Source: Tubulanus polymorphus
Taxonomy: Eukaryota > Nemertea > Palaeonemertea > Tubulaniformes > Tubulanidae
DNA: 64,000 bases
Direction of reading: 5' to 3'
Assembly (NCBI RefSeq): GCF_964204645.1
Contig: NC_134030.1
Span: forward strand, 21,643,210 to 21,707,209
Shown here: one piece after another, positions 7,148 through 63,459 of the stretch
Layout of the letters: the number at the start of each line of letters is the position of its first letter
How positions within the stretch are numbered: position 1 is the stretch's first letter
Position numbers and translations under genes: made by a program
The notes under the pieces: model-generated
The model's database searches: none
What the model was told of the DNA's origin: nothing
The model's input: the letters and a program-made list of their open reading frames with translations, nothing else

Positions 7148-7262
7148 GTAGGGACCCGTAGGGACCCTGTCACAGCAGTCCCCGTAGGGACCCTGTCACA
7201 GCAGTCCCCGTAGGGACCCTGTCACAGCAGTCCCCGTAGGGACCCTGTCACAGCAGTCCCGA
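7148..7262. repeat. 26-bp tandem repeat, four copies
   Basis: Exact units starting GTAGGGACCCTGTCACAGCA at 7,158, 7,184, 7,210 and 7,236. Confidence 0.95.
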
Positions 7263-8374: not shown

Positions 8375-8665
8375 CCTACCATAGATTGAAAATCCTCTCA
8401 ATCGCCAGAGCAGGAACTCTCTCAAATGGTGATATTTTGAACTCGCAAAAATCCTCAATCGCCAGAGCTGGAATCATCAGAAGCCAACATTTCGTACTCG
8501 TAAAAATCCTCGTTCCTCAATCGCAAGAGCAGGAATTCCCAAATGGCATTGTTTCGGACTTACAAAAATCCTCCATAGCCAGAGCAGGAATCTTCAACTG
8601 TCGCTAGATGAAAGAACCTCAACTGCTCCAGAGCAGGAATTCTCAGATGGCAATTTTTCAAACTG
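8375..8665. repeat. Tandem repeat of about 60-65 bp, about five copies
   Basis: Degenerate units carrying CAATCGCCAGAGCAGGAA, just beyond the end of the transporter gene's coding sequence. They may lie in its 3' UTR. Confidence 0.8.
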
Positions 8666-8673
8666 ATAAAACT

Positions 8674-22400: not shown

Positions 22401-28152
<5,752 letters not shown>

Positions 28153-37665: not shown

Positions 37666-37771
37666 ATGAGGAATCAGTCGAGGAATCTGCAGCAGTGTTT
37701 AGTGATCATACTGTTGATTCTAATCCCGAACAACAACAATCCACAAGGGTTTAGAGTCAAGAGAAATACCG
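37666..37771 (+). CDS. Ig gene exon 1: signal peptide
   Basis: The ATG at 37,666 is the first in-frame start after a stop at 37,657. It encodes 35 residues with a polar N-region, the hydrophobic core CLVIILLILIP (11-21) and a basic RVKR string (30-33) resembling a furin-type site. The donor ACCG|GTAAGA leaves one base, giving phase 1. A different frame across the same bases ends in a TAG within the exon and has no start, so it was not chosen. Confidence 0.8.
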
Positions 37772-40700
37772 GTAAGATACTTTGACACCAGTGCAAGAAC
37801 ATTTCATCGGAGTATCGTGGAAAATGTATTACGTAAAATAAAACTTAAAGGGCAAATGCCATCAAAATAGAATATTGTGTAAAATTCATTTTCAAATGTG
37901 ATGTATTCACAAATATCAAATATGGAACTGGTTTGAATTTTAACGTGATAAAACGACGCAATAAATCGCGAGAGACGATTGGAGTTGTACTGGACAGTGT
38001 GAATGTATTGAATTTTAGTTCAGCCATTACTGAGAAATATGACTTTTAAATCGCTTAGATTTAGCGCTGTAGGTCAGTGAATACCGTGAACAAATGATGT
38101 TTATTTTATTGATCATACATAGGCTACGCGTACTAGCGCGCACATGTGCTTGTGTTGATTGTCGTAGTTAACATCATAAATAGCGCCACCCGTCGGTTGA
38201 ATATGAACTATACGCACGGAGTGAAGGATAAATAGATAACTATTCCGCTAACTATTACGACTAATTTGTGCTCCTTTTTTCAATAAGTCACATCTCGGGT
38301 CGCTATATGTACTAAACTAAAGTTTCTTCTGGTAAAAAAATCGCGGAAAGTACAATTTTGATGGCATATGCTCTTTAACACCAGACTTGGAAACTTGTAT
38401 TTGAAGTACACAATGATAGTAGCTTATCAACCACTTGAACTGGTAAGGCAAAACAAAAATGATACCTTGTTTCTCCGCGCAGCGGCCGGGTCGTTTTATT
38501 GTAAAATATGATAATATTTGTAAACAGTTCATTTTTATAGCTGCCCGGGGTCTGTTCACAACCTCTTCACTACTGCAGATAAGGTAATGCCCCTCACCAG
38601 GACTGGACAGTGTGAATGTATTACCGGGTACAAGAATATTACGTATATTGTGTATTTGATATTTCAGCACCTGATGGAGTTGTACTGAACAGTGTGAATG
38701 TATTACCGGGTACTAGAATATTACGTATATTGTGTATTTGATATTTCAGCACCTGATGGAGTTGTACTGGACAGTGTCAATGTATTACCGGGTACAAGAA
38801 TATTACGTATATTGTGTATTTGATATTTCAGCACCTGATGGAGTTGTACTGGACAGTGTGAATGTATTACCGGGTACAAGAATATTACGTATATTGTGTA
38901 TTTGATATTTCAGCACCTGATGGAGTTGCACTGGGCAGTGTGAATGTATTACCGGGTACAAGAATATTACGTGTATTGTGTATTTGATATTTCAGCACCT
39001 GATGGAGTTGTACTGGACAGTGTGAATGTATTACCGGGTACAAGAATATTACCTATATTGTGTATTTGATATTTCAGCACCTGATGGAGTTGTACTGGAC
39101 AGTGTGAATGTATTACCGGGTACAAGAATATTACGTATATTGTGTATTTGATATTTCAGCACCTGATGGAGTTGTACTGGACAGTGTGAATGTATTACCG
39201 GGTACAAGAATATTACGTGTATTGTGTATTTGATATTTCAGCACCTGATGGAGTTGTACTGGACAGCGTGAATGTATTACCGGGTACTAGAATATTACGT
39301 ATATTGTGTATTTGATATTTCAGCACCTGATGGAGTTGTACTGGACAGTGTCAATGTACTACAGGGTACAAGCATGTTACTGTCGCAGGAAGGTAAAACT
39401 GTTAGTATTACCTGTAAACAGAGCAGCTCTACAGCAACTGGTGTTGAATTCCAGCTACTAGTGAACAGTGGAGCAGGAGGCACCTGGACTCTGTTACATA
39501 CAGCATCAGCACCAGTTTGGGATATTGTACTTGACGCTGGAAAACAGTATAAATGTGTAGCCAAGAATTCTGCTGGAAAGAAGGAAAGTCAAATCTACCA
39601 ATCGGATGTAATCAGTGAGTATTGCCCGTTCTTTTTGACGTAAAGACACAGGTAAACACAAAAAAGTTAAGAGGAAAATCGATCATAGCATGATTGAAGA
39701 AGCCATGTTTTCACATGTGTATCCATAATAAGGGTGGCTCCAAACATGTCTGAATCACGGCAATATGACCAGTCTTAGTTTTCATTGCTATTGTGGATGT
39801 TTTCATTTTTTGATACGGATTCTCTGTGGTTTGATTTCATTCGTCATAAATGTTCACTAATTCATCGTTGTAACTGAAAACCATGTGAAACTGAGAGAAA
39901 CTGTTAATTTAACTTAAGAACCATCCGCGCTTGCCAGGGATTGATTGCTTCCTTCTGAAACTCACTCCCTACCTGGCCAGTCCAATACATCTCCCGAGAT
40001 TTCTTGGGCACATAGGTTGCGGAAGCCAATCAGACACATTGTTTTTACCAGCAGATTCGCTTCGCGTTTGGTTGGCTGGATATATAGACTGGTGACCGCT
40101 TATTGGGCAATGCAATTGACCAATGAAGGGTTTGCGGCCAGGGTTTGTGTTAACGTGAGCTTAAGCGGGCGGCAATCGAACCCTGGCAAGCGAGGATGAT
40201 TCGAACAAAATGCAAAGGACCTGAAACCTCACTGTTTCAGCTCTTAAAAATCGTTCTAATATTTTCATTTATTTGTGTAGAGTTGCCATTTTAAATTTGT
40301 ATTTCATCAATAAAACATAGAGACCGATAATACTTTCATCAGGTGAATGAGTCAAGTACTATCTGTCTCTATGTTCTACTGATTCATTCATTCAGTTCAT
40401 CTTAAATCGATTTAAGAGTTGATGCTTTTCGTTTGCCAGTTTCACTCCGATATAGATTTGATTTGTGAATGTTTTCATGTAAATCTATTATAGGTATAAA
40501 GATAAATGAAAATCCGTGTAAGGCAGCTCAATTCCAACCATCACTGGCTTGTACTTGTAAAGCCACTAGTAAGATTGGTAATCCAAACATCAAAGTAAAA
40601 TGGTATGCTGATGGAAAACCTAATGATTTAACGGAAATTGACAATATCCGCGATCAAGGGGTAAATACTCCGCTGAAAGATGGAATTATCAACAGGAATC

Positions 40701-43700
40701 AGATAGGTTATGAAGCTGTGAAGAAATCAACATTTATTCAATGTCGATTGAGGAAATACAATGAGATACAACTACAGAGACCACTTCAATTTCAAATACT
40801 ACATCAAACTGTGATGGATGTTACGTGTAAGTAAAAAAGACATGTTTATGCCCCAGGCTTGATTTTAACTGAGAGGGGATAGATTTACCCGCGTCGGAAT
40901 ATGCCGTCGCTGCCGCGAGTGACGTTGACAGCCTGGAGGACGCAATTGTTGACCGATTTTTTTCAAACTTGGTACACAACTGGGGCATCACTTTGGCCAG
41001 AACCATATCATAAAGTGGGTCGATGCGGTTCACATTATGGTCACCAGGGGCCGCCATGAGAAACGACGTTAACAGTCTAGAAGCCGCTGTTGTCGACCGA
41101 TTTTCTTAAAACTTCATACATGAGTAGGGCTTCACTTGGGGGAACCCTATTTGAGATTAAGTTGATGCGATTTAAATTATGGCCACCAGGGGAAAACAGC
41201 CCAGAGGCTGCAACTGTTGATCAATTTTTTGATACTTTCTAACGCATTTACCACAAACCCTGTAACTTCACGTGTGGCGGTGAATTTCGGGTCGCTTTGC
41301 CTCATTCTAGTTATGAGAGAATTTCCAGACAATATCATATTGACGTCTGGTATGAGTTAAGGATATTTATACAGGAATGTCCCTGTCATATTTTAGATTG
41401 CCCGACAAACGACTTATGTCGCATGAGACCTGAACAAGTTTCAGGAGTCACTCAAACGTGTCCCCTGATAATCAAACATTAATTAAACATTTATGGGAGG
41501 GTTTAAGTAAAACTTTGTACTGCCCTGGCTTTTGTACAGCCTGATATCAGCCAAACACCTGCCACCACGAATGATATATTTTTCCATATTTAATGGATGA
41601 ACATTTTCTCATAGTTAAACGGGTCCAGTAGAAATATGAAAAGATGATAAAATGATTAAGTAAATAATTAATGATATCTAAAAAGTACATTTATATCTTT
41701 TTCTTTCAGATTTTCCCGATAGAATTCAAAGACGAGGTACTTTCACCGGACAACCTGATATTAAAACTGAAGGAGAAAATGTAGACTATATTTGTAGAAC
41801 AGAAGGTGGGAGGCCCGATCCTACAGTGATATACCAACAGAAGAGAAGAGGTTCTGAACAATGGGAAGCAATTCCTCCTGATCCACAAACTAAAAGAGTA
41901 GCACTCAAAGGGCATTTAAAAGGTTTTGACACGACCTACAAGTTCAAAGCTAATTTCAAACAGCACAATGGAACGTCATTTCGATGTGCTGTAAAGGAGA
42001 ACCTTACGTTTCCAGAACCTCAGCAATTTAATCCAATCATTGTTCATTGTAAGTAACAGATTTATTTGTTGTATTTGAGAAATCTTCCTAAGAATAACAG
42101 CATGGGTGGATCTAGGATTTTTCAAAGGGGGGGGTCTGCGAGACGGGCGATCGAAAATAATTTTATAAAATTGTGAAAAATCCTCGGGAAAATGGTGGAA
42201 TTCGATGAAATCTTGCTGCTGAGTCATAGTGCTGCGGTTACGATGAAGTGATGATAATTCTAATGAGATACCCACACGATTCATGGGGAAATGTATTTAT
42301 CTAAAATGTGTCATTATAATTTACAATTTTGGTTGTATCTTAAACGTTTTCGCAATCGCAAAAATTCAGATTATTTTGATTGGTTAAATGACCGTTTATC
42401 GGACACAGACTATAAAGTTTAGCGGAATGGCTGTAACCGAACGAAAAAGAGGGTCTCATGACAAATATGGGTCGGATCTTCACTGATATAATGACATATA
42501 CACAGCGCTGGGGTGATAGCTGCGCTACTGTAAGATCTGATTCTGAGGCAGAGAAGTACCAATCTCATGGGGCCTACTGCAAATAATCTCAAACCATTTT
42601 CATCTTCGGTTTTCCATAGACAAGTTTTTGAAAATGGCTCATAGATTTGAGTGGAAAGGTCAAACTATCAGATAGTTTTTTTTTTTTTATCGTGGGTTTT
42701 TGTCGACCATTTTCATCTTCTTAATTCAACAAACAGTGCGAGTTATCAGAAACGCTTCATAATTTCGATGTGAAAAGATTTGCTGATCTCGCGCTGAGAC
42801 ATGCTTGCTCGTGGGGGCGGGGGTTTCACGGTTGCGAATTTGATTCCTCAACCGAGTCAATCATGACCTAGCGCGCCGATATCTGCCGAACTGCCGTGAA
42901 GATTAGAGCTATTTACATGAAAAGACCTTTTACAAATTTTTCGGGAGGCATTAGAGGGGGTACAGCTAGCCACCCTATTCACCCCCTAGATCCGCCCCTG
43001 ATAAATGTATAAAGTTTTCCCTGCTACGATACCCCAGGGGCCGGTTGCATAGTCATGGCTTAGACTTAATACCAGTCTAAGACCAACTTAGTTCTATAGC
43101 CAATCTAACTACTTAAGACCAGTCTTAAGATTTAAGACCACTTATGGACTTAAGTCACGACTGTGCAACTGGCCCCAGGCCTTTGTAGACCTATCCGCCC
43201 TTAGTATAGTCAGGAGCGTGGCAGGAATTTCACAATGTCAAGTTCCAATCCCTACCAAGGGAGGAACGTGGCAGAGTCTCACGATGTCATCAGGTTCGAA
43301 TCCCTGCTGAGAGAAGATGGGTCTACTATGACAGGGCTTAAGAACTGTGCTAGGTCAGATATTACTTTTACTAATGTTTTGTTTGTTTTTCAATCAGATT
43401 TTGCTGCACCAGTTTACAAGAAATCCAGTGAAAATGAAACAAATGCAGCGTATATTGTAACAGTCAATAGTAACCCATTGACTCAACAAGTTACATGTGA
43501 CCCTCCAGCTGTCGTTCAAAAACTATCAAACTCTCAGTGGAATATAACGATACCTCTCGTAAATAGTACCACAACTGACTATAGAGGGCAGTGTTTGGCT
43601 GATGGTAACAAAGAAAGGGTCATTGATGTCGCTGGTTATCATCACGCCGGTCCAACTGATGAACCAGGTAAGATTCCGCGTCAGAACTGGACTTGTTGAC

Positions 43701-46700
43701 CCCACTCAGCGCGGGACTTAGGCAAAACGTTTTGTGAAAAACGTGTTTTCTGTTTTGGCGAAACAAATGTTATTTCGTGTGCGGCTAGGTTAATTCTCAA
43801 TTTGAAGCTAAGCTCAGGTCCGTATCATGTTGTCGGAAACGGTCTGCGATGTTTTCATCGGGAATTCTGAAAATTTGATGCGTTTTAGGCGCATTTCCAG
43901 CGAATGTTAGTGAATAGAGTTCATATGAAAAAGTCGCTGAAACACAATGCGTAATCTAATGAATTTTCTTTGACAAAATTAGCGGAACTCGGGATCTTCG
44001 TGGGTTCGCACCCAACACACCCCCCTTGGGTACGGGCCTGATACTATTTCTAATTACAGGGAATATCATGCAGGTGTGAAGTGGCCTAGTTTACAAAGTA
44101 GACCTACAAATCAAAACACGCTCAGTAAAAATGAGACACCGCGTGTGGAAAGTTGTTTATCGATACTTTGGTTTTTTGGATTTTGTACGTAATGTGTCTT
44201 CGATGGTGATTTCTAGGTCATTTCTGCCAACTTTTCAATGATTGAAAAGTTGTATTTTTGAAGAAAAGTTTGATGTACTTTTTTGACATGATGAAGGTGA
44301 AGTTCCTTGTTCCTTTATATTGTTTTACCAATGTATGTGTTATTTTGAATCGCGCCAATATTTGAATTTATAAAGTACTTTGGTAAACAAGGGTCAAGGA
44401 GTATGAACAAGTTCTATTTTCTAAGACCTAATCAAAATGGCCGTAGCCAATCAGTGATGAGTATTACTACCACTGTTCTTACGACTAGATGACCGCGTCA
44501 TAATTCGACCTGAGCTTAGTTTAAGTCGTCTAAATCTAAAGCCATCATCTGGGTAGTCACATAACTGTGGGTCAATTTTTGTTTGCAATTTAATTCACGA
44601 AAATTGTAAAAAAGATTTCGATACGTCAACATAGTGGAGTCTTGTGATGTCATCAGATTTGAATCCCTGCACAGGAAGAACAGGATGACTTGACTCTCAG
44701 TATTAACTGAACTCAGCGTATTACATTCAAATAATACTTTAGCATTTTCTACTTTCTATTTCGAAACTGTTTGACCCGATCGAGGAACTGTTAGTTGTTC
44801 GCATTTCGAAAACAACTTATTTACTTTATTTAGACGCTATTTGAGCTTTGAAATTATGGAACAATAAATTTTTGTTTGACCTAGTTAATTATTCAATTCA
44901 ATTGCTGTTACTTTTATCAATAGTTACAATAGAATAATTTCTAGCTTTATATAATTCAATTGCTGATTTGTTTGAATTTCAGTTCCAGATGAAGGGATTG
45001 GGGGAATAGTGTTTGGTGTACTGATATTACTGATTCTGATAATACTGTTTATACTGTGTCTTTGTGGCTGCTGTAAGTTTGACCTAAAACCATCATTTAA
45101 TCTGAAAAACAATAACAGACAAACTTGAAATAAAATACTGTGTTATTTCTAATTGACAGTGCGGTGCAGAAAACCTGATGATCAACTGTGTAGATGTGGA
45201 AATTGTAAGTCCTGTAATAATTCATTATACATAATGCTTAAAATTGAAAAAAATAGTTTACAAGGCTGGAGGGAGTCAAGGGTCCCAAGGTGGTACACAG
45301 TTGATTCTCGATTCTCAGTCAAAATTTTAAATTTCGGGACCCTAGTTGCAGAGTCTTATTCAAAAAGTGGTCGTAAAGTATTAGACTGGTCTTAAATTGT
45401 TAGATTGGTTATAGAAACCAAAATGAGCTTAGACTGATCTTAAGCTGTTAGATTGGCTATAGAACCGAAATCAGCTTAGACTGGTCTTAAGCTGTTAGAT
45501 TGGTTATAGAAACCAAAATCAGCTTAGACTGATCTTAAGTGGTTAGATTGGTTATAGAACTAAAATGAGCTTAGACTGGTCTTAAGCTGTTAGATAGGCC
45601 ACAGAACTAAAACTGTCTTAAACTGGTCTTGAATCTAAGCCATCACTGTGCAAATGGCCCTATTACAAAACATTTAGTTCATTGTCGATTGAAATGATTG
45701 TACACTGACAAGACTGTTCCCGACAGTGGCAGATAATTGAGAGTTCATGAGATCTGAAATTATAGCCTCACCTCTAGATATGCTTGATATTGCATACATG
45801 GGTTCAAGATCAATATAATTTTGTGTGCTCGCATTTGAACGGAAAAATGATAATTCAAAAAATAATTAGTCACTCCAAACATAAAAATACTGTATTTTGT
45901 TTTCCAGTGCTGTGTATCTATAGAAAACCTGCTGATAAACTGTTTAGATGTATTTGTCGCACCGAGGACTCGTCGGACGATGAACTATGTGTTTGTTGTT
46001 GCTGTAAGTGTCATAGAAAAATACCATCGTAGAATCGTAGAAAGGATTATCGCAAATTAGAATAATTTGTTTGTTTGTTTTAAGTGACTTGCAAATTACC
46101 TGCTGCCGATGAACCTGATAGTAAGGATGCCTCCTCAGATGAACTGTGTCATTGTTGTTGCTGTGAGTTCTATATATAAACTGATAATGATTAATAGTCA
46201 GTAACTGTAGAATAAACTGTTGTATTATTTCTATTTGCAGTGGTGTTGAGAAGTGAGCCGTGTACATGTAATTGCTGTAAGTTGTATTAACATTGAAAAC
46301 ATTGATGATTGATCCTGCAAAATTAACTGTTATTGTCATTGGACATTCATACAATTGAATTCAAAGTCTAAGAGTGTTTGAGAGTCTTCGTTCACAGTTG
46401 GTATTGATGTTAATAATCTTCAGACCGAGTTCATCGTAGATGATTAAAATCAGTTTTGTTTAAACACGAGAAAGTTTCACAGTATCATCAGTTCAATTGT
46501 GGCCTCAAAATGAATCATAGCATTAGCTACGTTTATGGATAGCATTAATATTATCCTATTTCTCTGGTGGATCAGTTGGTTAGGTTTTGTTGTGTGTCAG
46601 GTGATTGTGCTTCATGTAAATAAACAGTATTTCTGTTTTCTAATTAACAGTACCGTGTTTGTGTCCGAAATCTAAAGATGTGATTGAATTGTTGCGTTGG

Positions 46701-52700: not shown

Positions 52701-55700
52701 AAGAAACCGTGTTTGGATTGTCATGCATACATCACATTGGGTAGCTCTGAGAATATCCAAATCATATCATTAGAGGCTAGCTGAGGGTGATTTCTGTCCA
52801 AATGTTCCATTTTGGGAAATTATTTTTTCATTTATTTATTTCATTGTTCAACTATATTTTCAGGTATTTTTGAAATAAGCCGAGATGTTTTAGGTAAGAA
52901 CTAAATATTACTAACAAACTATAAATACCGAGGTCTAGGGTCGAGAGCAGACGCTTTAAAAGAAATTTCTAGCGGACAAACTCTCAATTTTCTGATAAAA
53001 AACTTGTTGGATTGAATTTTAATCAGATATTTGAAAAGAAGTTTAGATTAGAAGTATTGATTTTAGCAGTAGTTGATGCTGTGTTTGATCAAACCTAATC
53101 ATGAATTATTCTTTTTTTCAGAAATGAAATTGAAAATCGCAGTTTTCAAATCTATCAAAGGTAAGAGGTCTCTGTATGGAATATACATCAGAGTCAGCAG
53201 GGTTTGTTCTATCATTTTCCAAGATTCAACCTGAGCTCAATTTGTTTTCTGAGAACTCAATTTCAGTTCTGATGTCATTTTCCTGGTAATTTATCTTCAC
53301 GAATCACTTCTAGAATTGTACGCCGGACGAGCTGAAAGATTTCAGAAAGAACTCAAAGAGAAACTGAAACAAGAGGAAAATGAAGAGAGAAAAAATGAGG
53401 AGGAATTGAACAGAATAATTCACAGTTCAGTTTGTCAGGCGTTTAAATATATCACTGATATGAATGAAAGTAAATATCGATTTTATATATCAAATTATAA
53501 ATGTCACATATTATGTGTGAATGAATGCACATGTAACATGTTGGTTCTTTGATACATTTCAGAAACTCTGATGGATAATAAAGTTGTAGGATATGGAGGT
53601 TTGTAAATAGTTCAATCACAAACCAGTTTTTATCATGAATAATCAGTTTGATTTTCTCTATTTATATTTCAGTGAGTCCAGAAGAGATAAGTGAGTTCTG
53701 ATTGATATTTATAAGTATTCTCAGTAGACTGCGCGCTTGCCGCTGATTTCATGTTGTAATTCGTCATAGTTACCTGTTTATAAGTTGTTTGTTTCTATAT
53801 TGATAGATTCTAAACTACATGAATTAGCCGATAAAGAGTTTAAAGATAAGAAAGGTACTGTACACATTACAAAGTGTGAAATTCAACATGTTTTATTTTT
53901 AAATCTTATTGATGTTTAATATCAATGTTTATTACAGTCGGTAGATTTAATCAAATAAAGACACCTGAAGAAATAGTGACTCTAACACTGAATATACCGG
54001 CACAACTCCGCACTGGTAAGTGACTATACACTGAAACTGTGCAGAATGTAAATATTTCACTGAGTTGAGAATCAGGCAACTCAGTTTGTCACAAACTTCC
54101 GAATGTGTATTTATACAATTTTTACAGTGTTGGATTCAGCTGAAAGATATCGCGTTATTCTGTGGGATAAAGCAGGTATTGTATATAGTATAGGAATTGC
54201 TAGTGTTTTATGAGTATATTTTATACCTGGTCTTTTTAACAATACCTGTAATTGGAAATCTATCCCTGAAATCCGGAAACAGTCCCCCTCAACAGATGAT
54301 GAAATCTTCCTTTACTGCAAGGAAGAATCTTTGAAATCGCTTGGAATACCAGTCCCTGCAAAACAGTCCTCTAGCCCCTGATTTTGAGGAATGCGCCATG
54401 AAAGTAACGATCTATCAGTGGATTATGAGGTTTATCTATCTTCAGAAAAAAACTTAATATCTGAAAGCAACAGTTTAAAAAGTTCCTAGTTTATAATGAA
54501 ACCAAGCTCAATGAATGTTGTGTCTATGTTTGCTGTTTTATATATGAATTTCAGTGGAATATTTCAAGGACGAATTCATTATTGCAATACAATCTGATGA
54601 ATCATTGAAAACTGCTACTCAAACTGCTTTAGATAACAGTAAGTTACATCTACAGTAAACTACATTTACATCTACAGCAAACTACATTTACATCTACAGT
54701 AAACTACATTTACATCTACAGTAAACTACATTTACATCTACAGTAAACTACATTTACATCTACAATAAACTACATTTACATCTACAGTAAACTACATTTA
54801 CATCTACAGTGAACTTTATTTACATCTACAGCAAACTAAATTTACATCTACAGCAAACTAAATTTACATCTACAGTAAACTACATTTACATCTACAGTAA
54901 ACCTAAATTTTACATCTACTGTATTACATCTACAGTAAACTACAATTACATCTACAGTAAACTACATTTACATCTACAGTAAACTACATTTACATAAACA
55001 GTAAACTACATTTACATCTACAGTAAACTACATTTACATCTGGTTTATTCCCATCTCGGGGAAAGGGCGAAATCGGAAGGGGCAAAATGGATAGACACCC
55101 TTACATCTACAGTAAATTTGTTATACATCTACAGTAAAATGCAATTACATCTACAGTAAACAATAAGTTTCAATTATCCTGTTAAGATTTTCATTGAAAC
55201 TTGTTTTTGTTTTTTTCAGATTCAAGAAACTTGAATGATTTATTGAAAAAAGAATTTTTGATAGGTAAAATTGTCTGTCTATTGAAATAATTGTTTTTTT
55301 TTACGAATAAATAATGAATCAATATCACTGCTATAAATTCATATAAGGCCAAAAAATGATCTTGTTTTTCCTAAATGCCGGGTTATTTTTTAAATTCCAA
55401 TATAATCTGTAAGCTGTTCATTTCTAAATCTGTTCATTTCTGGGTCTGTTATTAGCTTGATCATGTGTCTAAAAAAAGTTTTGAACAGCGGCTAAAGGGC
55501 TACCAAGCCCAATGAAATGCTTGTAATAATACTACTACATGGGAGATAGGCGGCCGGCAGGGTCAACTTTTAAGCCCAGCAGAAATGAGAAACAAGGTAT
55601 CAATTTTTTAGCCTTAACAGCTGATTTTACTGTGTAAAACAATTAAATGATTTTCTTCTATTTTTAGTTAATAGAATTTATCGTGATGTCAAATTCAAAA

Positions 55701-58700
55701 TACAATCAATTCCTACAGGTTTGTAGTTTTAGTAATTCACTATCAATTCTTGCATCTAAAATGTTTAATACATTTTCACATGTTGAAGTTTTGTCATATA
55801 TCACATCATGTCATTTCATATGACAACATCATCTGATATATATATGCTTTTAAAACATTTCAAAAATCATTTGTTTATTCATTCTTCATGACTGATTCGA
55901 TGCTGAATTCATATTCAATGTCTATTTGTGATTTCAGAGGAATTAAAGGAACGAGGAATCGTAGCTTATAGAAGTGAGTTAAATTCAAATATTTGTTCAT
56001 CAATTACACATTTTCAAGCTTCCCAATACCCCTAAACTACCTCTAAACTCCTATTAATAGACTCCTAACACTAACTTCCTAACACTAAACTCTTAACACT
56101 AAACCTCTAACACTAGACTCCTAACACTAGACTCCTGACACTAAACTCCTAACACTAGACTCCTGACACTAGACTCCTAACACTAGACTCCTGACACTAG
56201 ACTCCTAACACTAGACTCTTGACGCTAGACTCCTAACACTAAACTCCTAACGCTAGACTCCTAACGCTAGACTCCTGACGCTAGACTCCTGACGCTAGAC
56301 TCCTGACGCTAGACTCCTGACGCTAGACTCCTGACGCTAGACTCCTGACGCTAGACTCCTGACGCTAGACTCCTGACGCTAGACTCCTAACGCTAGACTC
56401 CTAACGCTAAACTCCTAACGCTAGACTCCTAACGCTAGACTCCTGACGCTAGACTCCTAACGCTAAACTCCTAACGCTAGACTACTTACGCTAGACTCCT
56501 GACGCTAGACTCCTAACGCTAAACTCCTAACGCTAGACTACTTACGCTAGACTCCTGACGCTAGACTCCTGACGCTAGACTCCTGACGCTAGACTCCTGA
56601 CGCTAGACTCCTGACGCTAGACTCCTGACGCTAGACTCCTGACGCTAGACTCCTGACGCTAGACTCCTGACGCTAGACTCCTAACGCTAGACTCCTAACG
56701 CTAGACTCCTAACGCTAAACTCCTAACGCTAGACTACTTACGCTAGACCCCTGACGCTAGACCCCTGACGCTAGACCCCTGACGCTAGACCCCTGACGCT
56801 AGACCCCTGACGCTAGACCCGTGACGCTAGACCCCTAGCAATAGACCCCTAGCAATAGACTCCTGACACTGGACTCCTGACACTGGACTCCTGACACTGG
56901 ACTCCTGACACTGGACTCCTGACACTGGACTCCTGACACTGGACTCCTGACACTGGACTCCTGACACTGGACTCCTGACACTAGACTCCTGACACTAAAC
57001 TCCTAACACTAGACTCCTATAACTAGACTCCTAGCAATAGACTCCTAAGACTAGACTCCTAACACTAAACTCCTAACACTAGAATCCTAACACTAGACTC
57101 CTAACACTAGACCCCTAACACTAGACTCCTAACACTATACTCTTAACACTAGACTCCTAACACTAAACTCCTAACACTAGAATCCTAACACTAGACTCCT
57201 AACACTATACTCTTAACACTAGACTCCTAACACTATACTCTTAACACTAGACTCCTAACACTAGACTCCTAACACTAAACTCCTAACCCTTAAACTCCTA
57301 ACCCTTAAACTCCTAACACTAGACTCCTAACACTAAACTCCTAACCCCTCAACTCCTCAGCTGAGTCTCAATGAAATGAGCAAATATTACAATCTTAAGA
57401 ATAAGTTATATAGATATAATGCATTGAATAATGATACAATAAATCGAATACTGTAATTATATTAGATTAATGTATTCTACAAATAAATAAGAATTTTCCA
57501 GATTTAGATTTTAATCAGAAGTAAGAATTATATGGTTAAAGTGAACTGTATAAGTTTACCAGTTCAGATCTACCGGTACTCAATGTTTATATATCCGGTA
57601 TTTGAATTATTGTTGTTTTTTGTTTTTCAGTAAAAGACGAAACAGCGCGTAAGTACTGATAACAACTGATTCGTTAAACTCTACATAAATAAATAACACA
57701 ATATGATATATCCTATATTGAATAGAAGCGGTTCTTATATAGCTCTGAATTCTGTGAAGCTGTTCATGAAATACTTCCTTTAGGATTGGAAAGAATAACA
57801 TGTTTCTCTCTCCCTGCAGTAATCTATTGTGTTTATTCTGTTTCAGTGAAACACATCAAACCAATTATTGCTGACAGAATCCAATATTTTGAAGGTGAAT
57901 ACATTGTATTGACTGTTAAGGGTATTAATTAACAAGTTAAACCAGTACAGAGTAAGGGTGAAGGTCGACTGTATTTTGTAGGAGGATATTTGGCGCTATT
58001 GCAGCATAAATAGTTTAAAACATCAGTCAATGTTGTAATAGTTTCTATTTTCTAAGTTGTTTTGCTCCTCATTAGGTACATTGTAACATGTATAATTACA
58101 GATTCGCTAGAGACTGTTTTAGAAGAGAAATGTAAAAAGGCTCTCAGTATGTGGTCATCAAAACACTGGAAATATGATATATCTACTGCGAGTAAGTTCA
58201 CAGAGAAATCAATTTGTGATTTATAATATTGTATAAAAACTTGTCTATTGTTTATTACATATAGTGTCTGAACTCAGTGAATTTACCAGTAGAACTTTAA
58301 AGACAAACACAGGTTATTGGAAACAAGTCAAAGAATGTTTTGGTAAATAATGAATTCTTGTTCACTGAACGTTTTATTAAATGATCTGATTTTTAGGTTT
58401 TGAATAATAATTATTTGTTCTGTTTGAATAGGAGATGAAATTAACGGTGAAACAAATACAACTGAACTGACAGAAATAGGTGAATATAAAAAAATTCAGA
58501 TAAACAGAAATATAGTATTGAATTCATTGAAGATGAAATTCATCAATGTAATCGAATCTTCACAGAGACCTGTTTTGATTCAAAGCAATATAAACTAATT
58601 TTAAACTAAGAGCGCTTGAAACCCTTTGGTCTCAGTTTGAATCAATGTGAAAATTTATTGTTTATAGTTACTGAATGTTTGGGTGAATGCAGTAAAACAA

Positions 58701-60379
58701 TGCGTGATAAATGGAACACTGGTGAGTACCCCTCATGAGTACTTCTCATGAGTACCCCTCATGAGTACCTATCATCAGTACCTCTCTTGAGTACCTTATT
58801 CAAATGACCACCGAGCGTCTTGAGTACTGTTAAGTACAGGACTTGAATACAAATTGTAATTCGAGCAGGAAAGTTGATTGAGTACCATTTATTAACTGTC
58901 AGGATATGTAATTAGTGTGGTGAGTACAATGAGTACCAAATACAGACACTCAACTGAGTACCCGGCCCCGGTACCTGAATTGTGTAAAGACATTTAAATG
59001 ATGTAATTCATTGATCAAGTTGAAACAAACTGCAAACTGAACCAGTTTATTTGTGAACTAATGTTTCATGATTTGATATTTTTAGACTATTTTAAAAACC
59101 GAAAGATGATTGTAGAGACAGGTAAATATTGCGTAGCTCTGATATTCAGCCCAGTACTGCCCCCTGGTGACTTTATGAGATGTAACTATTCTGTTATTTG
59201 TATTTTAGACGAGATTGTTGATGAGATAAAACGCGAATATTTTCAGACTCCCGAATTTAGAAGTAGGTTTCCAGTAAAATCAGAACCTGTTTCAACAACC
59301 AGAACTCAAATATTAATATCTGTATGTATTGTATTATTATTTATAGGATCAGTTGAGACTGCAGTGAATGAAGCTATCAAGAATTCAGGTAATTAAATAT
59401 TCTTCATAAATATGAATTCTGTGTTTGAATATTTCCAATTAGTCGAATTTAGATTTTGAATTGACTTCAGAGAAGAGCTTGGCCAAAGGTGTATTTTCAC
59501 GATGTAAACATGTATTTACTGCAGGTCAAATTCAGATTTTGAAATGACTTCAGATGTTTAGTGAATGTGTATTTTTTTCAATGTAAACTTATATTTTACA
59601 GAAAAATCACAAGCCGGCAAAAAACCGAACTATGAAGTTGCAGGTTTGTAACATTTCTGGTAACGAATTTGACCTGATGGATTTCACAGATTAGAAAACA
59701 AATTCCCTGGGAAAAAACAAATTCCATTTTAAATATGTCAACTATTTCGTTCCATGGTTTCCTGTCGTTACTAGGGTGGTAGTCACCCTTGTTGATGATT
59801 TACCCCTAAGGGTAACTTTGAATCGCGGTCTATGAAATCAGGAAGATTATGTAATATTCTGTTCAAAATTATATCTTATTATTTCAGAGAAATGGATAGC
59901 TGATGAAATGAAAGGTAAATTGACTGATGATAAATACTCAGTTTTATGATGAGTTTGTGTTGATGTTTACAGAATCATTTCTAATTTCAGGTTTCACGGT
60001 TAAACCATCTGAAATTTATGGTATGTGATATTGTTTTATATCTATATATGTTGTATGGGTGGCTCATCAGTCAGACAACTGGGCGAGAAATCGAGTAACA
60101 ATTCACTAAAAATCCTGATGTTTTTTTTTTCAGAGCGTAATGAATTTGCTAAACTTGCACAACCAAAAGGTAATGAATAGATTATGTGTGTTAAAACTGA
60201 TGTTATCGATTTTGATAATGTTTTATAATGTTAAACGTAATTTAATTTCTATTTCAGTAACGAGAAAATCAAGAGAGTTGATAAATGAGATACGTGCTAT
60301 AACAGATAAAGGTAATCAATATTGACTTCTATAAACATTTTACTGACTCAATATTTCCATATTCATGGATTCATGTTTC

Positions 60380-60410
<31 letters not shown>

Positions 60411-63400
60411 CGTGTCTTATGGTCCCCAAACCGGGAAATCAGGAATTGCAAAATAATATTTCATCATGGCTCAAAATATTTGCGTTGTAAGTTGATAGAT
60501 TTTCCTCTCATTCTGGAAGTATTTTGAAAATTTATTTTGCGCTTCAACTTTCTTCACCAATCTTTCTTGAAAATCACCTACATCAGCCAATCACCGGTAA
60601 AATGTTGACGTCACTGTAGTGTATGATGTAATCTGCTAAATCTGGAAAATGAAATCAACACCCATGAAATACTCGGGTTTATTGACTTCATGTAATTGTG
60701 AGAACTATCCATAAATTCTGTTTTGAGTTCGATCACAAACTTGTTTGGTCTTTACTTCTTTAGATTTGAAGTTTATCTGATGTTATATGTGAATGATACA
60801 ACTGTTTATAGTTTGTATGCATCAGTTCATATATTGTTTTCATTTCATTTTTCAGGCGAATTAAAAAAGCTCGGTTTCCTGGTAGAGGAGTCGAGTAAGT
60901 AAATTATACAGTCATCACTTTCTGATTTAGACTAGGATCGAGAGATGAAATAGTTTGACATACAATAAATCGACAAAATTAAGATGAAATTAAGTTTCAT
61001 TTTCTCTGGTTTGTGGGAGATCCGAAGTATATGATTAAACCGGTTTAATCCGGATCACTGGGGGAACCGGTGAAATTCATCTGGTTTATGAGAAATCACG
61101 ATTTAAAATCGTATTCTGTGAGATACAAGTTGATCGTTTAATAAATAGTCATAAAACTGAACGAAATCTTTAAGAAACCAAGAAATCGGATTTAACTGAT
61201 ATTGATTCAATGAGTTTGATTTGTATTTAGTGTTCTAATTTCCACTGAACAGTTTAACACATCATCAACAACTATTTCATTTATTTAGGGAAACCAACAA
61301 TATCCAATTCAAGACATTAGGCTAAAAAAAATTGATACCTTGTTTCTCCGCTCTGCTGAGCCTAAATGTTGACCCGGCCGGCCGCCTATCTACCCTATAC
61401 ATTACTTTTTTAAAAATCGTGATCAATTTTACCATAACAGACCCGGCCGCTATAGAAATGAACTGTTTATAAATTTTATCATATTTTACAAAAATGACCC
61501 GGCCGCTGCGGAGAAACAAGGTATCATTTTTGTTTAGCCTTATTCTTACGTTTCGTGTAGAATCCTTCCACACATCTTCAGAGTTTATTTGAAAAATATA
61601 TTTATAATTTACTGATATTCATCAAGACTGGAAATAGTCTTAACGGTTTACAACAATGATCAACAGTGTTTGATAATGCAATTCAACTAAGAGTCTAGAA
61701 TGTTTCCTTGAGCTAGTGTAGTTTATCCAACGTTTCGACTTGATCCTAAGTCATCTTCAGGAATACTGTATTCCTTGAGCTAGTGTAGTTTATTCAACGT
61801 TTTGACTATATCCTAATAGTCATCTTCAGGAATACTGTATTCCTTGAGCTAGTGTAGTTTATTCAACGTTTCGACTTTATCCTAATAGTCATCTTCAGGA
61901 ATTCAGGAATACTGTATTCCTTGAGCTAGTGTAGTTTATTCAACGTTTCAACTATATCCTAATAGTCATCTTCAGGAATACTGTATTCCTTGAGCTAGTG
62001 TAGTTTATTCGACGTTTCGACTATATCCTAATAGTCATCTTCAGGAATACTGTATTCCTTGAGCTAGTGTAGTTTATTCAACGTTTCGACTATACCCCAA
62101 TAGTCATCTTCAGGAATACTGTATTCCTTGAGCTAGTGTAGTTTATTCAACGTTTCGACTATACCCCAATAGTCATCTTCAGGAATACTGTATTCCTCGA
62201 GCTAGTGTAGTTTATCCAACGTTTCGACTTGATCCTAAGTCATCTTCAGGAATACTGTATTCCTTGAGCTAGTGTAGTTTATTCAACGTTTTGACTATAT
62301 CCTAATAGTCATCTTCAGGAATACTGTATTCCTTGAGCTAGTGTAGTTTATTCAACGTTTCCACTATATCCTAATAGTCATCTTCAGGAATACTGTATTC
62401 CTCGAGCTAGTGTAGTTTATTCAACGTTTCGACTTTATCCTAATAGTCATCTTCAGGAATACTGTATTCCTTGAGCTAGTGTAGTTTATTCAACGTTTCA
62501 ACTATATCCTAATAGTCATCTTCAGGAATACTGTATTCCTTGAGCTAGGGTAGTTTATTCAACGTTTCGACTATATCCTAATAGTCATCTTCAGGAATAC
62601 TGTATTCCTTGAGCTAGTGTAGTTTATTCAACGTTTCGACTTTATCCTAATAGTCATCTTCAGGAATACTGTATTCCTTGAGCTAGTGTAGTTTATTCAA
62701 CGTTTCAACTATATCCTAATAGTCATCTTCAGGAATACTGTATTCCTTGAGCTAGTGTAGTTTATTCAACGTTTCGACTATATCCTAATAGTCATCTTCA
62801 GGAATACTGTATTCCTTGAGCTAGTGTAGTTTATTCGACGTTTCGACTATACCCCAATAGTCATCTTCAGGAATACTTAAGTGTTTGTGAAATTCCAAGT
62901 ATAAACATTATCTAGAACTAAGAGCCTTATCAATTAATAAGACGTGATAGAAACTAGGGGTAATAATTAATGATGTAAGAACAGTTACAAATTTGAAGCA
63001 GAACAAACTCAAAGGGTTCTAATATGATATAGTAGTGAATATAAGTTTATGAAGTCGAATGACTTTAGGATGTTTGCAGTTGTTCGGTGTTTGGTTTATA
63101 TTGTGTATTTATTTATAGGGCTTAGTAGAAATCTAAGTAATGAAACTGCTGGTGAAGGTAGATCGGGTACTGGCCGACCAGTGAGTGGTGTGTCGAGCAG
63201 TGGCCGACCAGTGAGTGGTGATGGTGGATCACTTGGTGGTGATGGTGGATCACTTGGTGGTGATGGTGGACCAGTTGGTGGTGAAGGAACAGTGAACGAT
63301 GAACCTGCTGGTGGTGTTAGTCCGACTAGTGACACTGTGTTCACTGGTGGTGGTGGGTCGCCTTATGGTGGTCAGGGTGATGGTAGTATACCTCCTAACT

Positions 63401-63459
63401 ATGATCGTCGATCTAGTGGTGGTAGCGGGCAGGATCCTGGGGGTTTATCAAACTCTTAA
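37666..63459 (+). CDS. Ig-domain type I membrane protein with a long micro-exon-encoded tail (whole gene)
   Basis: Not recognised as a named family. About 54 coding exons thread together with every junction in phase 1 and all internal exons a multiple of three, giving 4,218 nt and about 1,405 residues. Order: signal peptide (1-35), four Ig-like domains (36-446), a membrane segment (about 452-471), a Cys-rich juxtamembrane stretch (477-586), a long hydrophilic, mostly charged tail (587-1,292) with one clear coiled-coil exon, and a Gly/Ser-rich end (1,293-1,405). The first 446 residues would be extracellular and the rest cytoplasmic. It could be an adhesion or immune-type receptor; no enzyme domain or ITAM/ITIM-like motif was noticed. 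Micro-exons may have been missed in the larger introns (46,849-48,496; 54,639-55,219; 60,312-60,855). Segment entries follow. Confidence 0.82.
38430..38560. mobile_element. Harbinger-like MITE fragment in Ig intron 1
   Basis: 38,440-38,510 contains AATGATACCTTGTTTCTCCG and GCGGCCGGGTCG, the same end and interior as the complete copy at 61,317-61,542. Confidence 0.65.
38595..39323 (+). repeat. 82-bp tandem array duplicating the Ig1 splice acceptor and exon start
   Basis: Nine acceptors, each TATTTGATATTTCAG followed by CACCTGATGGAGTTG, end at 38,667, 38,749, 38,831, 38,913, 38,995, 39,077, 39,159, 39,241 and 39,323, exactly 82 bp apart. Only the last leads into the complete Ig1 exon. The others read about 22 codons into the next copy and then meet TGA. 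A partial copy (GGAGTTGTACTGGACAGTGT) also lies at 37,980. Confidence 0.97.
39324..39614 (+). CDS. Ig gene exon 2: Ig-like domain 1
   Basis: Residues 36-132. The first cysteine is in VSITCKQ and the second in KQYKCVAKNSAG, the usual F-strand Y.C pattern. The exon starts with the final copy of the duplicated 82-bp unit. Donor ATCA|GTGAGT, phase 1. Confidence 0.88.
40494..40826 (+). CDS. Ig gene exon 3: Ig-like domain 2
   Basis: Residues 133-243. Cysteines in LACTCK, the core Trp in VKWYADG, and the second cysteine in FIQCRLRK. The spacing is that of an I- or V-type Ig fold with the Trp retained. Acceptor TATTATAG, donor ACGT|GTAAGT. Confidence 0.88.
41710..42048 (+). CDS. Ig gene exon 4: Ig-like domain 3
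   Basis: Residues 244-356. First cysteine in VDYICRTEGGRPDP, second in SFRCAVKEN. The Trp position is taken by Tyr (VIYQQ). Two NxT sites (NGT, NLT). Acceptor TTTCTTTCAG, donor CATT|GTAAGT. Confidence 0.88.
42101..43000. mobile_element. hAT-like TIR element of about 900 bp in Ig intron 4
   Basis: The left end reads CATGGGTGGATCTAGG and the right end in complement CAGGGGCGGATCTAGGGG. No transposase frame. No convincing 8-bp target duplication was seen. Confidence 0.7.
43025..43180. mobile_element. GGGGCC TIR MITE, single copy, in Ig intron 4
   Basis: GGGGCCGGTTGCATAGTC to GACTGTGCAACTGGCCCC, about 148 bp, as at 12.1-12.7 and 29.5 kb. Confidence 0.85.
43398..43667 (+). CDS. Ig gene exon 5: Ig-like domain 4
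   Basis: Residues 357-446. Cysteines in QVTCDPP and YRGQCLADG. Two or three NxT/NxS sites (NET, NIT, NST). Shorter and more diverged than the other three. Ends with a linker (GPTDEP) before the membrane segment. Confidence 0.8.
44983..45072 (+). CDS. Ig gene exon 6: transmembrane segment
   Basis: Residues 447-476: a short acidic stalk (VPDEG), then about 20 consecutive hydrophobic residues (IVFGVLILLILIILFIL), then CLCGC on the presumed cytoplasmic face. A single membrane pass after the Ig domains implies a type I orientation. Confidence 0.9.
45160..46725 (+). CDS. Ig gene exons 7-11: Cys-rich juxtamembrane micro-exons
   Basis: Exons 45,160-45,204, 45,908-46,003, 46,085-46,162, 46,241-46,276 and 46,651-46,725. 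Each starts T|TG or T|TA, so each begins with Leu, and each has a Cys close to the start (LRCRKP, LLCIYRKP, LTCKLP, LPCLCP). The first four end in Cys clusters or a CRCGN-type end (CVCCC, CHCCC, CTCNC). With exon 6 they hold about 23 cysteines. DELC precedes the cluster in exons 8 and 9, so these exons look like products of tandem exon duplication. Cytoplasmic Cys clusters next to a membrane segment are typical S-acylation sites; metal binding is an alternative. Confidence 0.8.
45335..45662. mobile_element. Expanded GGGGCC-family repeat in Ig intron 7
   Basis: Ends GGGACCCTAGTTGCAGAGTC and GCACTGTGCAAATGGCCC. The centre is amplified to about five units of GACTGGTCTTAAGCTGTTAG with GGTTATAGAA. 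Confidence 0.75.
46807..49956 (+). CDS. Ig gene exons 12-18: charged tail, part 1
   Basis: Exons 46,807-46,848, 48,497-48,532, 48,672-48,746, 49,274-49,321, 49,647-49,676, 49,757-49,807 and 49,894-49,956, all phase 1. Exon 12 (ENWVKTRDQ) and exon 14 (ENDWVITRDKDK) are clearly related, so this part arose at least partly by internal duplication. Exon 12 has the weakest donor (GTATTT). No known domain. Confidence 0.72.
48185..48422. repeat. Dispersed repeat of about 80 bp, copy cluster 3 (inverted)
   Basis: Three units in the opposite orientation to 9.6 and 23.4 kb (GATCCACCAGGTGTCGCTAG, GATTCCACTTGTGGCAAGTG), in Ig intron 12. Confidence 0.9.
48744..49055 (+). repeat. Minisatellite built from the exon 14 splice donor
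   Basis: About 18-20 units of roughly 16 bp (GAGGTAAGAGTAGTGA, GTGGTAAGAGTAGTGA). The first unit is the donor itself (CAAG|GTAAGAGGAGTGAG), so the array presents about twenty GGTAAG sites in a row. Open frames on the minus strand are artefacts. Confidence 0.95.
49985..50748. repeat. 40-bp minisatellite in Ig intron 18, about 19 copies
   Basis: Units GTAGAGAGTTTGTAATCTGT followed by AAACCTGATAGAAGCGGCCG. The 171-codon minus-strand frame across it is an artefact. Confidence 0.97.
50826..54015 (+). CDS. Ig gene exons 19-33: charged tail, part 2, with a coiled coil
   Basis: Exons 50,826-50,909, 51,205-51,252, 51,340-51,378, 51,610-51,627, 51,707-51,754, 51,847-51,900, 52,054-52,101, 52,355-52,423, 52,864-52,893, 53,122-53,160, 53,314-53,469, 53,563-53,598, 53,673-53,690, 53,807-53,854 and 53,938-54,015. 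Sizes are 18-84 bp except exon 29 (53,314-53,469, 156 bp), which encodes a Glu/Lys-rich heptad-like helix (residues 861-912; ERFQKELKEKLKQEENEER), the best coiled-coil candidate. Exons 22 and 31 are only 18 bp. Several exons start G|AA ATG (Glu-Met). Donors are strong (GTAAG, GTGAG) except GTTTG after exons 24 and 30. No catalytic or binding motif was recognised. Confidence 0.72.
54128..60894 (+). CDS. Ig gene exons 34-53: charged tail, part 3
   Basis: Exons 54,128-54,175, 54,555-54,638, 55,220-55,264, 55,668-55,718, 55,938-55,973, 57,631-57,648, 57,847-57,894, 58,102-58,191, 58,265-58,342, 58,432-58,479, 58,668-58,721, 59,086-59,121, 59,209-59,262, 59,347-59,388, 59,602-59,643, 59,888-59,914, 59,991-60,020, 60,134-60,169, 60,258-60,311 and 60,856-60,894. 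All are phase 1 and 18-90 bp; eight exons in the whole tail are exactly 48 bp. Exon 47 has two in-frame acceptors six bases apart (AGGATCAG). The encoded sequence is rich in Glu, Lys, Thr and Ile with no recognised domain. Individual very short exons, especially 57,631-57,648 and 59,888-59,914, are the least certain. Confidence 0.7.
54645..55165 (+). repeat. 22-bp minisatellite next to the exon 35 donor
   Basis: About 19 units of ACATCTACAGTAAACTACAT, the first starting seven bases inside the intron (AACA|GTAAGTTACATCTACAG). Each unit repeats a CAGTAA string like the donor. A non-repeat insertion lies at 55,041-55,105. Confidence 0.95.
55440..55620. mobile_element. Harbinger-like MITE fragment in Ig intron 36
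   Basis: AGATAGGCGGCCGGCAGGGT and GAGAAACAAGGTATCAATTT match the interior and right end of the copy at 61,317-61,542. Confidence 0.65.
56035..57362. repeat. 1.3-kb minisatellite of a 14-bp unit in Ig intron 38
   Basis: About 95 units of CTAGACTCCTGACG and variants (CTAACG, CTGACACTGGA, CTAACACTAAA), grouped in homogeneous blocks: CTAACACTAGA at both edges, CTGACGCTAGA in the centre, CTGACACTGGA near 56,860-56,990. G-poor on the plus strand. Confidence 0.97.
58722..58800 (+). repeat. Short array seeded by the exon 44 donor
   Basis: The donor GGTGAGTACC is followed by four to five copies of CTCATGAGTACC/T. Confidence 0.85.
61289..61320 (+). CDS. Ig gene alternative last exon 54, ended by a transposon
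   Basis: Acceptor TTTATTTAG then A|GG AAA CCA, phase-compatible with exon 53. It encodes RKPTISNSRH and stops at TAG 61,318-61,320. That stop is formed by the target duplication and first base of the MITE inserted at 61,317. Using this exon gives a protein of about 1,302 residues without the Gly-rich end. Confidence 0.5.
61317..61542. mobile_element. Harbinger-like MITE, complete copy
   Basis: TTA flanks both ends (61,317-61,319 and 61,540-61,542). The inverted ends GGCTAAAAAAAATTGATACC and GGCTAAACAAAAATGATACC (complement) continue into CTTGTTTCTCCGC. A 3-bp TWA duplication with GG-type ends fits PIF/Harbinger MITEs. There is no coding capacity. Confidence 0.85.
61690..62880. repeat. Satellite of about 70 bp, about 17 copies, with a hammerhead-like core in each
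   Basis: Units TATTCCTTGAGCTAGTGTAG, TTTATTCAACGTTTCGACTA and TATCCTAATAGTCATCTTCA. On the minus strand each carries a self-complementary GGAATACAGTATTCC arm, CTGAAGA, the GACTAT/ATAGTC hairpin and GAAACG. Two or three units have changes that shorten the hairpin (for example CTTGATCCTAAG at 61,738-61,750). It lies between the two alternative last exons of the Ig gene. Confidence 0.95.
63119..63459 (+). CDS. Ig gene last exon 55: Gly/Ser-rich C-terminus
   Basis: Acceptor TTTATTTATAG then A|GG CTT, phase-compatible with exon 53. It encodes residues 1,293-1,405, ending GLSNS and TAA at 63,457-63,459. It contains SGRPVSG and DGGSLGG repeats and a PPNYDRRSSGG segment. Low complexity, probably disordered. 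The bases just after the stop repeat CGTCGATCTAGTGGTGA from within the exon, so the exon may itself be repeat-derived. Confidence 0.72.

Follow-up and report, generated by a model that had tools for sequence, protein, structure and literature searches.

A predicted immunoglobulin receptor gene with a tail of symmetric micro-exons in a tandemly duplicated family

Gene Structure

This study was concerned with a 64,000-nucleotide stretch of DNA (the window), C6:21643210-21707209 of a 267.8-Mb eukaryote assembly of 77 contigs, and with one gene on it that joins the exons of an immunoglobulin (Ig) receptor to a tail of very small exons. The evidence for the gene is the genomic sequence of this one assembly, and its structure is known here from DNA alone. 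The curated model runs from an ATG at 37666 to a stop codon at 63459 and has 54 exons (e1 to e54), which encode 1,405 residues and the stop. All 53 introns are GT-AG and phase 1, and all 52 internal exons are multiples of three and symmetric. An earlier reading made from the letters of the window (the sequence-only reading) had given the same two ends, which were correct, and about 54 exons, introns all in phase 1 and 1,405 residues, which the rebuilt model reproduced. It had also described phase 1 symmetry running from the Ig exons through the entire tail, as all 53 introns bear out. The observation of an Ig receptor-type gene with a micro-exon tail is confirmed.

The gene was rebuilt by dynamic programming with splice-site and codon-use scores and with any intron phase allowed; the splice-site matrices were typed from general knowledge. 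With a rising exon penalty, the free-phase models matched 48, 45 and 35 of the 54 curated exons exactly, and 49 were found in at least one run. These runs also added 42, 15 and 5 exons outside the curated model, 24 of these 62 being class 1-1. Class 1-1 exons accounted for 69 of 96 exons under the loose penalty and for 50 of 66 and 38 of 46 under the stricter ones. Exons e2, e9, e10, e42 and e45 were set by eye in the curated model.

Chance open reading frames as a source of the tail exons were excluded by reverse-strand and shuffle controls. A scan for splice sites only, on the plus strand of the tail region, found 37 strong non-overlapping exons, 27 of them phase 1-1. The minus strand of the same region gave 9 strong exons (2 phase 1-1), and ten dinucleotide shuffles gave on average 16.2 (3.3 phase 1-1). 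Two further candidates were rejected. An alternative last exon seen by eye at 61290-61320 had no convincing match in three aligned paralogue stretches. Mini-exons of an 82-bp minisatellite before e2 were predicted in several dynamic-programming runs, phase-1 runs included, and were dropped from the core model because they have weak donors and are not needed to join e1 to e2.

Head and Tail of the Predicted Protein

A Pfam search over the whole ectodomain returned C2-set_2 (E 9.4e-8), Ig_2 (4.8e-6) and ig (2.1e-4), with their best stretches in e4, e3 and e2, respectively. By these Ig-fold profile matches the predicted product belongs to the immunoglobulin superfamily. The sequence-only reading had counted four Ig exons; three of them (e2, e3 and e4) have Pfam Ig matches and stand, whereas e5 has none and is a probable Ig-like domain by position and cysteines alone. 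No fibronectin type III (FN3) domain was matched by Pfam at E up to 1. Simple hydropathy shows one strongly hydrophobic segment besides the signal peptide; it peaks at residue 455 (3.67), and the signal peptide has its peak at residue 11. Hydropathy and Pfam profiles together give a type I layout, with signal peptide, Ig domains and a single transmembrane (TM) helix.

The tail from e11 to e53 consists of 43 exons of 18-156 nt (median 48), which hold 2,193 of the 4,218 coding nt (52%). The sequence-only reading had given about 45 micro-exons of 18-90 bp. The model has 47 short exons after the TM exon (e7-e53), of which e11-e53 make up 43, and 42 of these 43 are at most 90 nt; the size range failed for e29 (156 nt) and for e8 (96 nt). 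The 730 residues of e11-e53 are rich in Glu (12.3%) and Lys (11.2%) and poor in Pro (1.9%) and Gly (2.9%), and the tail is probably helical. It has no strong hydrophobic segment by hydropathy and no Pfam domain (best E 0.32), and its best match among PDB sequences (E 0.54) is not meaningful. Regular expressions for YxxM and for motifs like the immunoreceptor tyrosine-based inhibitory motif (ITIM) found no match in the window tail and one ITIM-like match in Ig domain 2; the spacing of the corresponding activation motif (ITAM) was not searched. An ITIM-type signalling tail was ruled out by this motif scan of the window tail. At the place of e54, three paralogues have shorter terminal exons (47, 40 and 67 amino acids versus 112). 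The coordinates of all exons are given in Table 1.

Table 1. Exons of the curated model and the minisatellite before e2 (positions in the window). "Model" denotes the curated model and "paralogues" the aligned paralogue stretches.
Feature	Position	Strand	Basis or remark
e1, signal peptide MRNQSRNLQQCLVIILLILIP..., phase 1 at end	37666..37771	+	like reading in 4 paralogue stretches
82-bp minisatellite, 9.5 copies	38602..39380	+	each unit: acceptor and 5' part of e2, possible 42-nt phase 1-1 exon
e2, Ig-like domain 1	39324..39614	+	model, paralogues, Pfam; ends set by eye
e3, Ig-like domain 2	40494..40826	+	model, paralogues, Pfam
e4, Ig-like domain 3 (C2-set_2)	41710..42048	+	Pfam, genome copies, paralogues
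e5, probable Ig-like domain 4 by position and cysteines	43398..43667	+	model, paralogues; no Pfam match
e6, transmembrane exon	44983..45072	+	hydropathy averages 3.67; in 3 paralogues the aligned acceptor lacks AG
e7, Cys-rich juxtamembrane exon	45160..45204	+	both ends mapped in 2 paralogue stretches
e8, Cys-rich, 96 nt	45908..46003	+	model; five stretches hold one partial copy and none mapped at both ends
e9, Cys-rich	46085..46162	+	model; one fully mapped copy; end set by eye
e10, Cys-rich	46241..46276	+	model; two mapped copies; end set by eye
e11, first exon of K/E-rich tail	46651..46725	+	model, paralogues
e12	46807..46848	+	model, paralogues
e13, length varies by 3 nt; e13-e14 join a stop in one paralogue	48497..48532	+	model, paralogues
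e14	48672..48746	+	model, paralogues
e15	49274..49321	+	model, paralogues
e16	49647..49676	+	model, paralogues
e17	49757..49807	+	model, paralogues
e18	49894..49956	+	model, paralogues
e19	50826..50909	+	model, paralogues
e20, starts possible old repeated set e20-e23	51205..51252	+	model, paralogues, HHalign
e21	51340..51378	+	model, paralogues, HHalign
e22, 18 nt	51610..51627	+	model, paralogues, HHalign
e23	51707..51754	+	model, paralogues, HHalign
e24	51847..51900	+	model, paralogues
e25	52054..52101	+	model, paralogues
e26	52355..52423	+	model, paralogues
e27	52864..52893	+	model, paralogues
e28	53122..53160	+	model, paralogues
e29, longest tail exon (156 nt); genome-wide tail marker	53314..53469	+	model, paralogues, genome search
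e30	53563..53598	+	model, paralogues
e31, 18 nt; start of block duplicated in paralogues	53673..53690	+	model, paralogues
e32	53807..53854	+	model, paralogues
e33	53938..54015	+	model, paralogues
e34	54128..54175	+	model, paralogues
e35, cassette marker, 0-3 copies per array gene	54555..54638	+	model, paralogues, array counts
e36	55220..55264	+	model, paralogues
e37, starts set e37-e40 resembling e20-e23; aligned acceptor not AG in 3 paralogues	55668..55718	+	model, paralogues, HHalign
e38	55938..55973	+	model, paralogues, HHalign
e39, 18 nt	57631..57648	+	model, paralogues, HHalign
e40	57847..57894	+	model, paralogues, HHalign
e41	58102..58191	+	model, paralogues
e42	58265..58342	+	model, paralogues; start set by eye
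e43	58432..58479	+	model, paralogues
e44, end of block present twice in one paralogue	58668..58721	+	model, paralogues
e45	59086..59121	+	model, paralogues; set by eye
e46	59209..59262	+	model, paralogues
e47	59347..59388	+	model, paralogues
e48	59602..59643	+	model, paralogues
e49	59888..59914	+	model, paralogues
e50, e50-e51 join a stop in one paralogue	59991..60020	+	model, paralogues
e51	60134..60169	+	model, paralogues
e52	60258..60311	+	model, paralogues
e53	60856..60894	+	model, paralogues
e54, terminal exon, G/S-rich, repetitive	63119..63459	+	model; unmatched by exon nucleotide search of paralogues

Linkage of Head and Tail

Copies of head exons and of the first half of the tail (e11-e29) were searched for in the genome; the match counts for e2, e4, e5, e29 and e35 are lower bounds. 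At least 18 places in the genome carry exon e29: C6 has 16 of them, and C9 and C19 have one each. At 17 of the 18 a copy of e5 lies 6.0-9.9 kb upstream on the same strand, the C19 copy being the exception. Because e29 so regularly has e5 just upstream, head and tail are predicted to be one gene, and the joining of Ig exons and micro-exons proposed by the sequence-only reading holds on the same count. Two genes side by side, a short Ig receptor with the Cys-rich exons as its last and a micro-exon gene with a start of its own, are very improbable. Such a pair would fit the 8 of 25 close e5 copies without e29 within 20 kb downstream, and it would fit the C6:18.35 Mb stretch, which has head, TM and Cys exons and matched none of e11-e53. 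It is opposed by the conserved spacing and strand of e5 and e29 and by the absence of an in-frame ATG from e11. The free-phase models, too, span head to tail unbroken, though they were forced to one stop exon and chose the last one. By the e5 copies without e29, some members of the family are short-tailed or truncated.

Conservation in Paralogues

Five 40-kb paralogue stretches were used, and each of the 54 exons, with 60-nt flanks, was aligned once per stretch, to whichever match was best there. Since that match could lie at any point of the stretch, copies from neighbouring genes and duplicated cassettes are mixed in places, a mixing that the ratios of nonsynonymous to synonymous substitution rates (dN/dS) inherit. 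For example, exons of two neighbouring genes are combined in the 22.76-Mb stretch, and in the 21.756-Mb stretch e2 and e3 come from the adjoining gene. A match was found in 201 of the 270 combinations of exon and stretch, and 197 of these are mapped at both ends (49, 44, 7, 48 and 49 per stretch); one stretch has no tail exons. All exons but e8 and e54 have at least one paralogue copy mapped at both ends, and the Cys-rich exons e8-e10 have no match in three of the four tail-bearing stretches. The 82-bp minisatellite before e2 was matched in all five stretches at about 89-98% identity.

Aligned donors were GT in 200 of 201 cases and acceptors AG in 189 of 201; of the twelve acceptor misses, e6, e13 and e37 account for nine, in three stretches apiece, and the other three are unmapped exon starts. 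All 193 internal mapped paralogue exons are open in the expected frame. Net length, measured between anchored exon ends, had changed in 31 of the 197 exons, always by a multiple of three (18 of 18 distinct changes; tail exons account for nine), versus 23 of 126 changes in the intron flanks (14 of 87 distinct). The dN/dS values were 0.54-0.63 for the Ig exons (five comparisons) and 0.58-0.81 for the tail (four comparisons). Because of these open frames, kept splice sites, in-frame length changes and dN/dS values, we conclude that the micro-exons are coding, in phase 1 and moderately constrained.

The Tandem Family

The head exons belong to a large set of copies. There are at least 67 genome matches for e4, 24 of them at 73-100% identity (own copy included), at least 32 for e2 and at least 29 for e5, of which 25 are at least 76% identical (own copy included); four e5 matches at 49-50% were left out of these 25 close copies. 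Twenty-four of the close copies lie on C6 and one on C9, so that the Ig-type receptors of this family are clustered. From 21.68 to 22.10 Mb there is a run of twelve genes of the window type (A), interleaved after the second A with ten copies of another type (B), in the order AABABABABABABABABABABA. The Ig exon of B is 51-53% identical to e4.

B-type loci lie within C6:21.72-22.10 Mb and, in the fetched stretches, at L044:3643-4242 and from L035:4853. Four of the five fetched stretches have, 3' of a B-type Ig exon, a Tyr-rich open frame that contains repeats like KDTTPYMDMGAGK. The four frames contain 3, 10, 3 and 3 copies of YxxM, a PI3K-binding motif, and the frame with 10 has 682 codons. No relative was found in viral contigs.

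Evolution of the Tail

Exon order is collinear among the paralogues, and whole blocks of exons differ in number. For example, e31, e32, e33, e35 and e39 are present twice, in order, in the 21.716-Mb stretch, and eleven exons of e31-e44 are present twice in order in the 21.942-Mb stretch, together with a third e35. Over the run of twelve genes, e35 was counted zero times in one gene, once in three, twice in seven and three times in one (lower bounds); in the window gene it is present once. Within the window gene, HHalign matched e20-e23 to e37-e40 at E about 0.001 (a single comparison), the best of 55 segment pairs, and these two sets may be an old four-exon duplication, a reading strengthened by the shared exon sizes (48/39/18/48 versus 51/36/18/48 nt). 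A repeat hidden Markov model, which we seeded ourselves, is circular for its seeds and matched the e20-e21 region only at i-E 0.08-0.55. Judged from these comparisons, in which gain and loss of exons and cassettes is seen directly, the tail appears to have grown by duplication of exon cassettes. Such gain and loss in evolution can explain the symmetry of the exons without splicing diversity.

Splicing Diversity

The 43 tail exons of the window gene allow 903 forward joins, and not one makes a stop codon, because none of these exons ends in T. Over five tails 4 of 218 exons end in T, the paralogue lists holding the exons past the similarity cut. By comparison, T stands at codon position 1 in 18.5% of the tail, and it is the last base of seven of the ten exons before the tail. 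Stop-making joins number 9 of 1081, 12 of 595, 0 of 741 and 9 of 1431 in the four paralogue tails. Very short introns favour intron definition, under which exon skipping is less usual, and 21 of the 53 introns are at most 116 nt.

These counts bear on the proposal that the tail generates diversity by splicing, in that one receptor, by skipping exons in many combinations, would be made with a wide choice of in-frame intracellular parts and so be a counterpart of Dscam on the inner side. The symmetry of all 52 internal exons would suit this, as would the lack of stop-making joins and of T-ending tail exons in the window gene, and the schistosome micro-exon genes do vary by skipping (PMC4015677, in the passages at hand). 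Against it stand the short introns, the 9-12 stop-making joins in three of the four paralogue tails, and the consideration that avoidance of T at exon ends may reflect donor strength or common exon descent. We regard a splicing diversity generator as rather unlikely, and programmed exon skipping in the window gene as possible. The interpretation in the sequence-only reading, which included many such in-frame isoforms, is supported in part.

Comparison with Known Systems

The sequence-only reading had known of no described family with this layout, and none was found among the matches listed (titles and abstract starts) in the open-licence literature, although one may still be published. Several known systems resemble the window gene in part. 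Tropoelastin and the PEVK region of titin have long runs of small symmetric exons of one phase, with in-frame exon choice and repeat expansion; unlike the window gene, they are structural proteins, neither receptor tail nor tandem gene family. Arthropod Dscam1 is an Ig receptor with FN3 domains, in which Ig exons are varied by mutually exclusive splicing. It shares with the window gene an exon layout that could give many isoforms, but the window gene has one exon per Ig domain and no FN3 match in the Pfam scan. Vertebrate KIR, LILR and like genes form tandem clusters of paired Ig receptors. The alternation of A genes with B loci (an Ig exon and a Tyr-rich open frame in the four B loci examined) is similar, whereas the A tail of the window lacks an ITIM-like or YxxM motif.

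In the passages of PMC4015677 at hand, schistosome micro-exon genes have a signal peptide and many very small symmetric exons, removable without a change of frame, which hold up to 75% of the coding sequence; the products are small and apparently secreted, and splice variants have been sequenced. As so described, a signal peptide and symmetric micro-exons are common to both systems; in the window gene the micro-exons e11-e53, all symmetric, hold 52% of the coding nt. The window gene differs in that it encodes a large Ig receptor, of 1,405 residues and with one TM helix, and lies in a tandem array; its micro-exons, which make up about half of its coding nt, would code for the inner part of the protein. 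The Alr family of Hydractinia serves allorecognition, with allelic polymorphism and with homophilic binding that decides fusion. Its 40 Alr and Alr-like genes are clustered on one chromosome (PMC11876637, in part), and Alr is of the Ig superfamily by the title of a family paper cited there. Tens of clustered related receptor genes are a likeness to the present family, while the passages of PMC11876637 at hand make no mention of a micro-exon tail.

Other Features in and near the Window

Exons of an MFS transporter lie at 9839-12125 (-) of the window (MFS_1 E 9.4e-15 and 5.2e-8 in two frames). A DHHC palmitoyltransferase exon at 23719-24804 (+) (E 2.2e-13) runs into a 54-bp minisatellite; that it lies close to a gene whose juxtamembrane exons are Cys-rich may be chance. 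A perfect (TGA)130 array of 390 bp occupies 26582-26971. Searches for taxon markers gave no match for COX1, innexin or GH6 and one connexin match below the cut-off; the control genomes were prokaryotic and give no signal for innexin, connexin or GH6, so these results do not amount to absence, and nothing found speaks for or against the lophotrochozoan placement implied by the sequence-only reading. In the 18.35-Mb stretch, about 13 kb beyond the tail-less Ig member, there is an NLR-like frame of 930 codons (L039:510-3299; NACHT E 1.3e-14, NLRC4_HD2 3.4e-5, weak LRR matches). A GIY-YIG-type frame at 35029-35775 (-) of the window had an E of 0.001, below the cut-off, and a reverse-transcriptase-like frame was seen by eye at about 7218-8669 (-) of the L039 paralogue stretch. 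Together these two suggest what we take to be Penelope-like retrotransposons.

Interpretation

The reading that we favour, and consider probable, is that of a working gene in a fast-duplicating family of type I Ig receptors, the cytoplasmic tail of which grows and shrinks by in-frame exon cassettes. It builds on gene structure, family, frame conservation, moderate purifying selection and variation in cassette number, which our comparisons establish. The predicted protein would have a signal peptide, three clear and one probable Ig domain, one TM helix, a Cys-rich juxtamembrane stretch, a 730-residue K/E-rich and probably helical cytoplasmic tail in 43 micro-exons, and a low-complexity end. Since every intron is in phase 1, exons can be copied, deleted or relocated, singly or in runs, with the frame kept, and in this way the tail has probably been built and still varies. 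We infer that the uniform phase was caused by in-frame duplication and not by selection for splicing diversity. The tail itself might act as a modular helical scaffold or docking arm.

Several results weigh against this reading. First, two of the four concatenated paralogue tails have one stop at a joint of neighbouring exons (e13-e14 and e50-e51), which therefore calls for skipping, another splice site or damage there. Secondly, dN/dS of up to 0.81 means weak constraint on the tail, and the TM and Cys-rich exons gave 0.58-1.92, with only 4 synonymous differences each. Third, with a stiffer gap penalty, one of the 31 changed exons (e8, in one stretch) differed in length by a number not divisible by 3. 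Raw counts of gaps inside the alignments showed no exon bias: multiples of 3 made up 31 of the 100 gaps in exons and 72 of the 399 in intron flanks. We presume that loose gap costs had led to pairs of gaps that cancel out; net length, with two different gap settings, was used in place of these counts. In addition, e5 has no Pfam Ig match to E 1 and two of its paralogue copies have none to E 10, and HHalign gave the e20-e23/e37-e40 pair a probability of only about 22%. Lastly, that the Ig head may serve cell-surface recognition, immune or self/non-self, is argued from the Ig domains and the tandem expansion.

The weak constraint and the joint stops, with the one of twelve array members that has no e29 or e35 match, would also fit an array that is largely decaying, its exon-like sequences being remnants of repeated duplication with little function left. 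This is highly unlikely, given that the 31 changed exons all keep frame while most changed intron flanks do not, and that every internal mapped exon is open.

In textbook cases, Ig receptor diversity varies the outer part of the receptor. A more far-reaching view, which we think unlikely, places diversity inside the membrane: the tails of tandem Ig receptors would be libraries of about 43-60 interchangeable micro-exons, varied by cassette number between genes and by exon skipping within a gene, and would alternate with Tyr-rich partner receptors. A receptor family with a frame-neutral inner tail that differs by whole cassettes would be a new way to evolve or diversify signalling. With its 18 tail-marker places and 0-3 cassette copies per gene, the array is a natural experiment on the origin and spread of symmetric exons.

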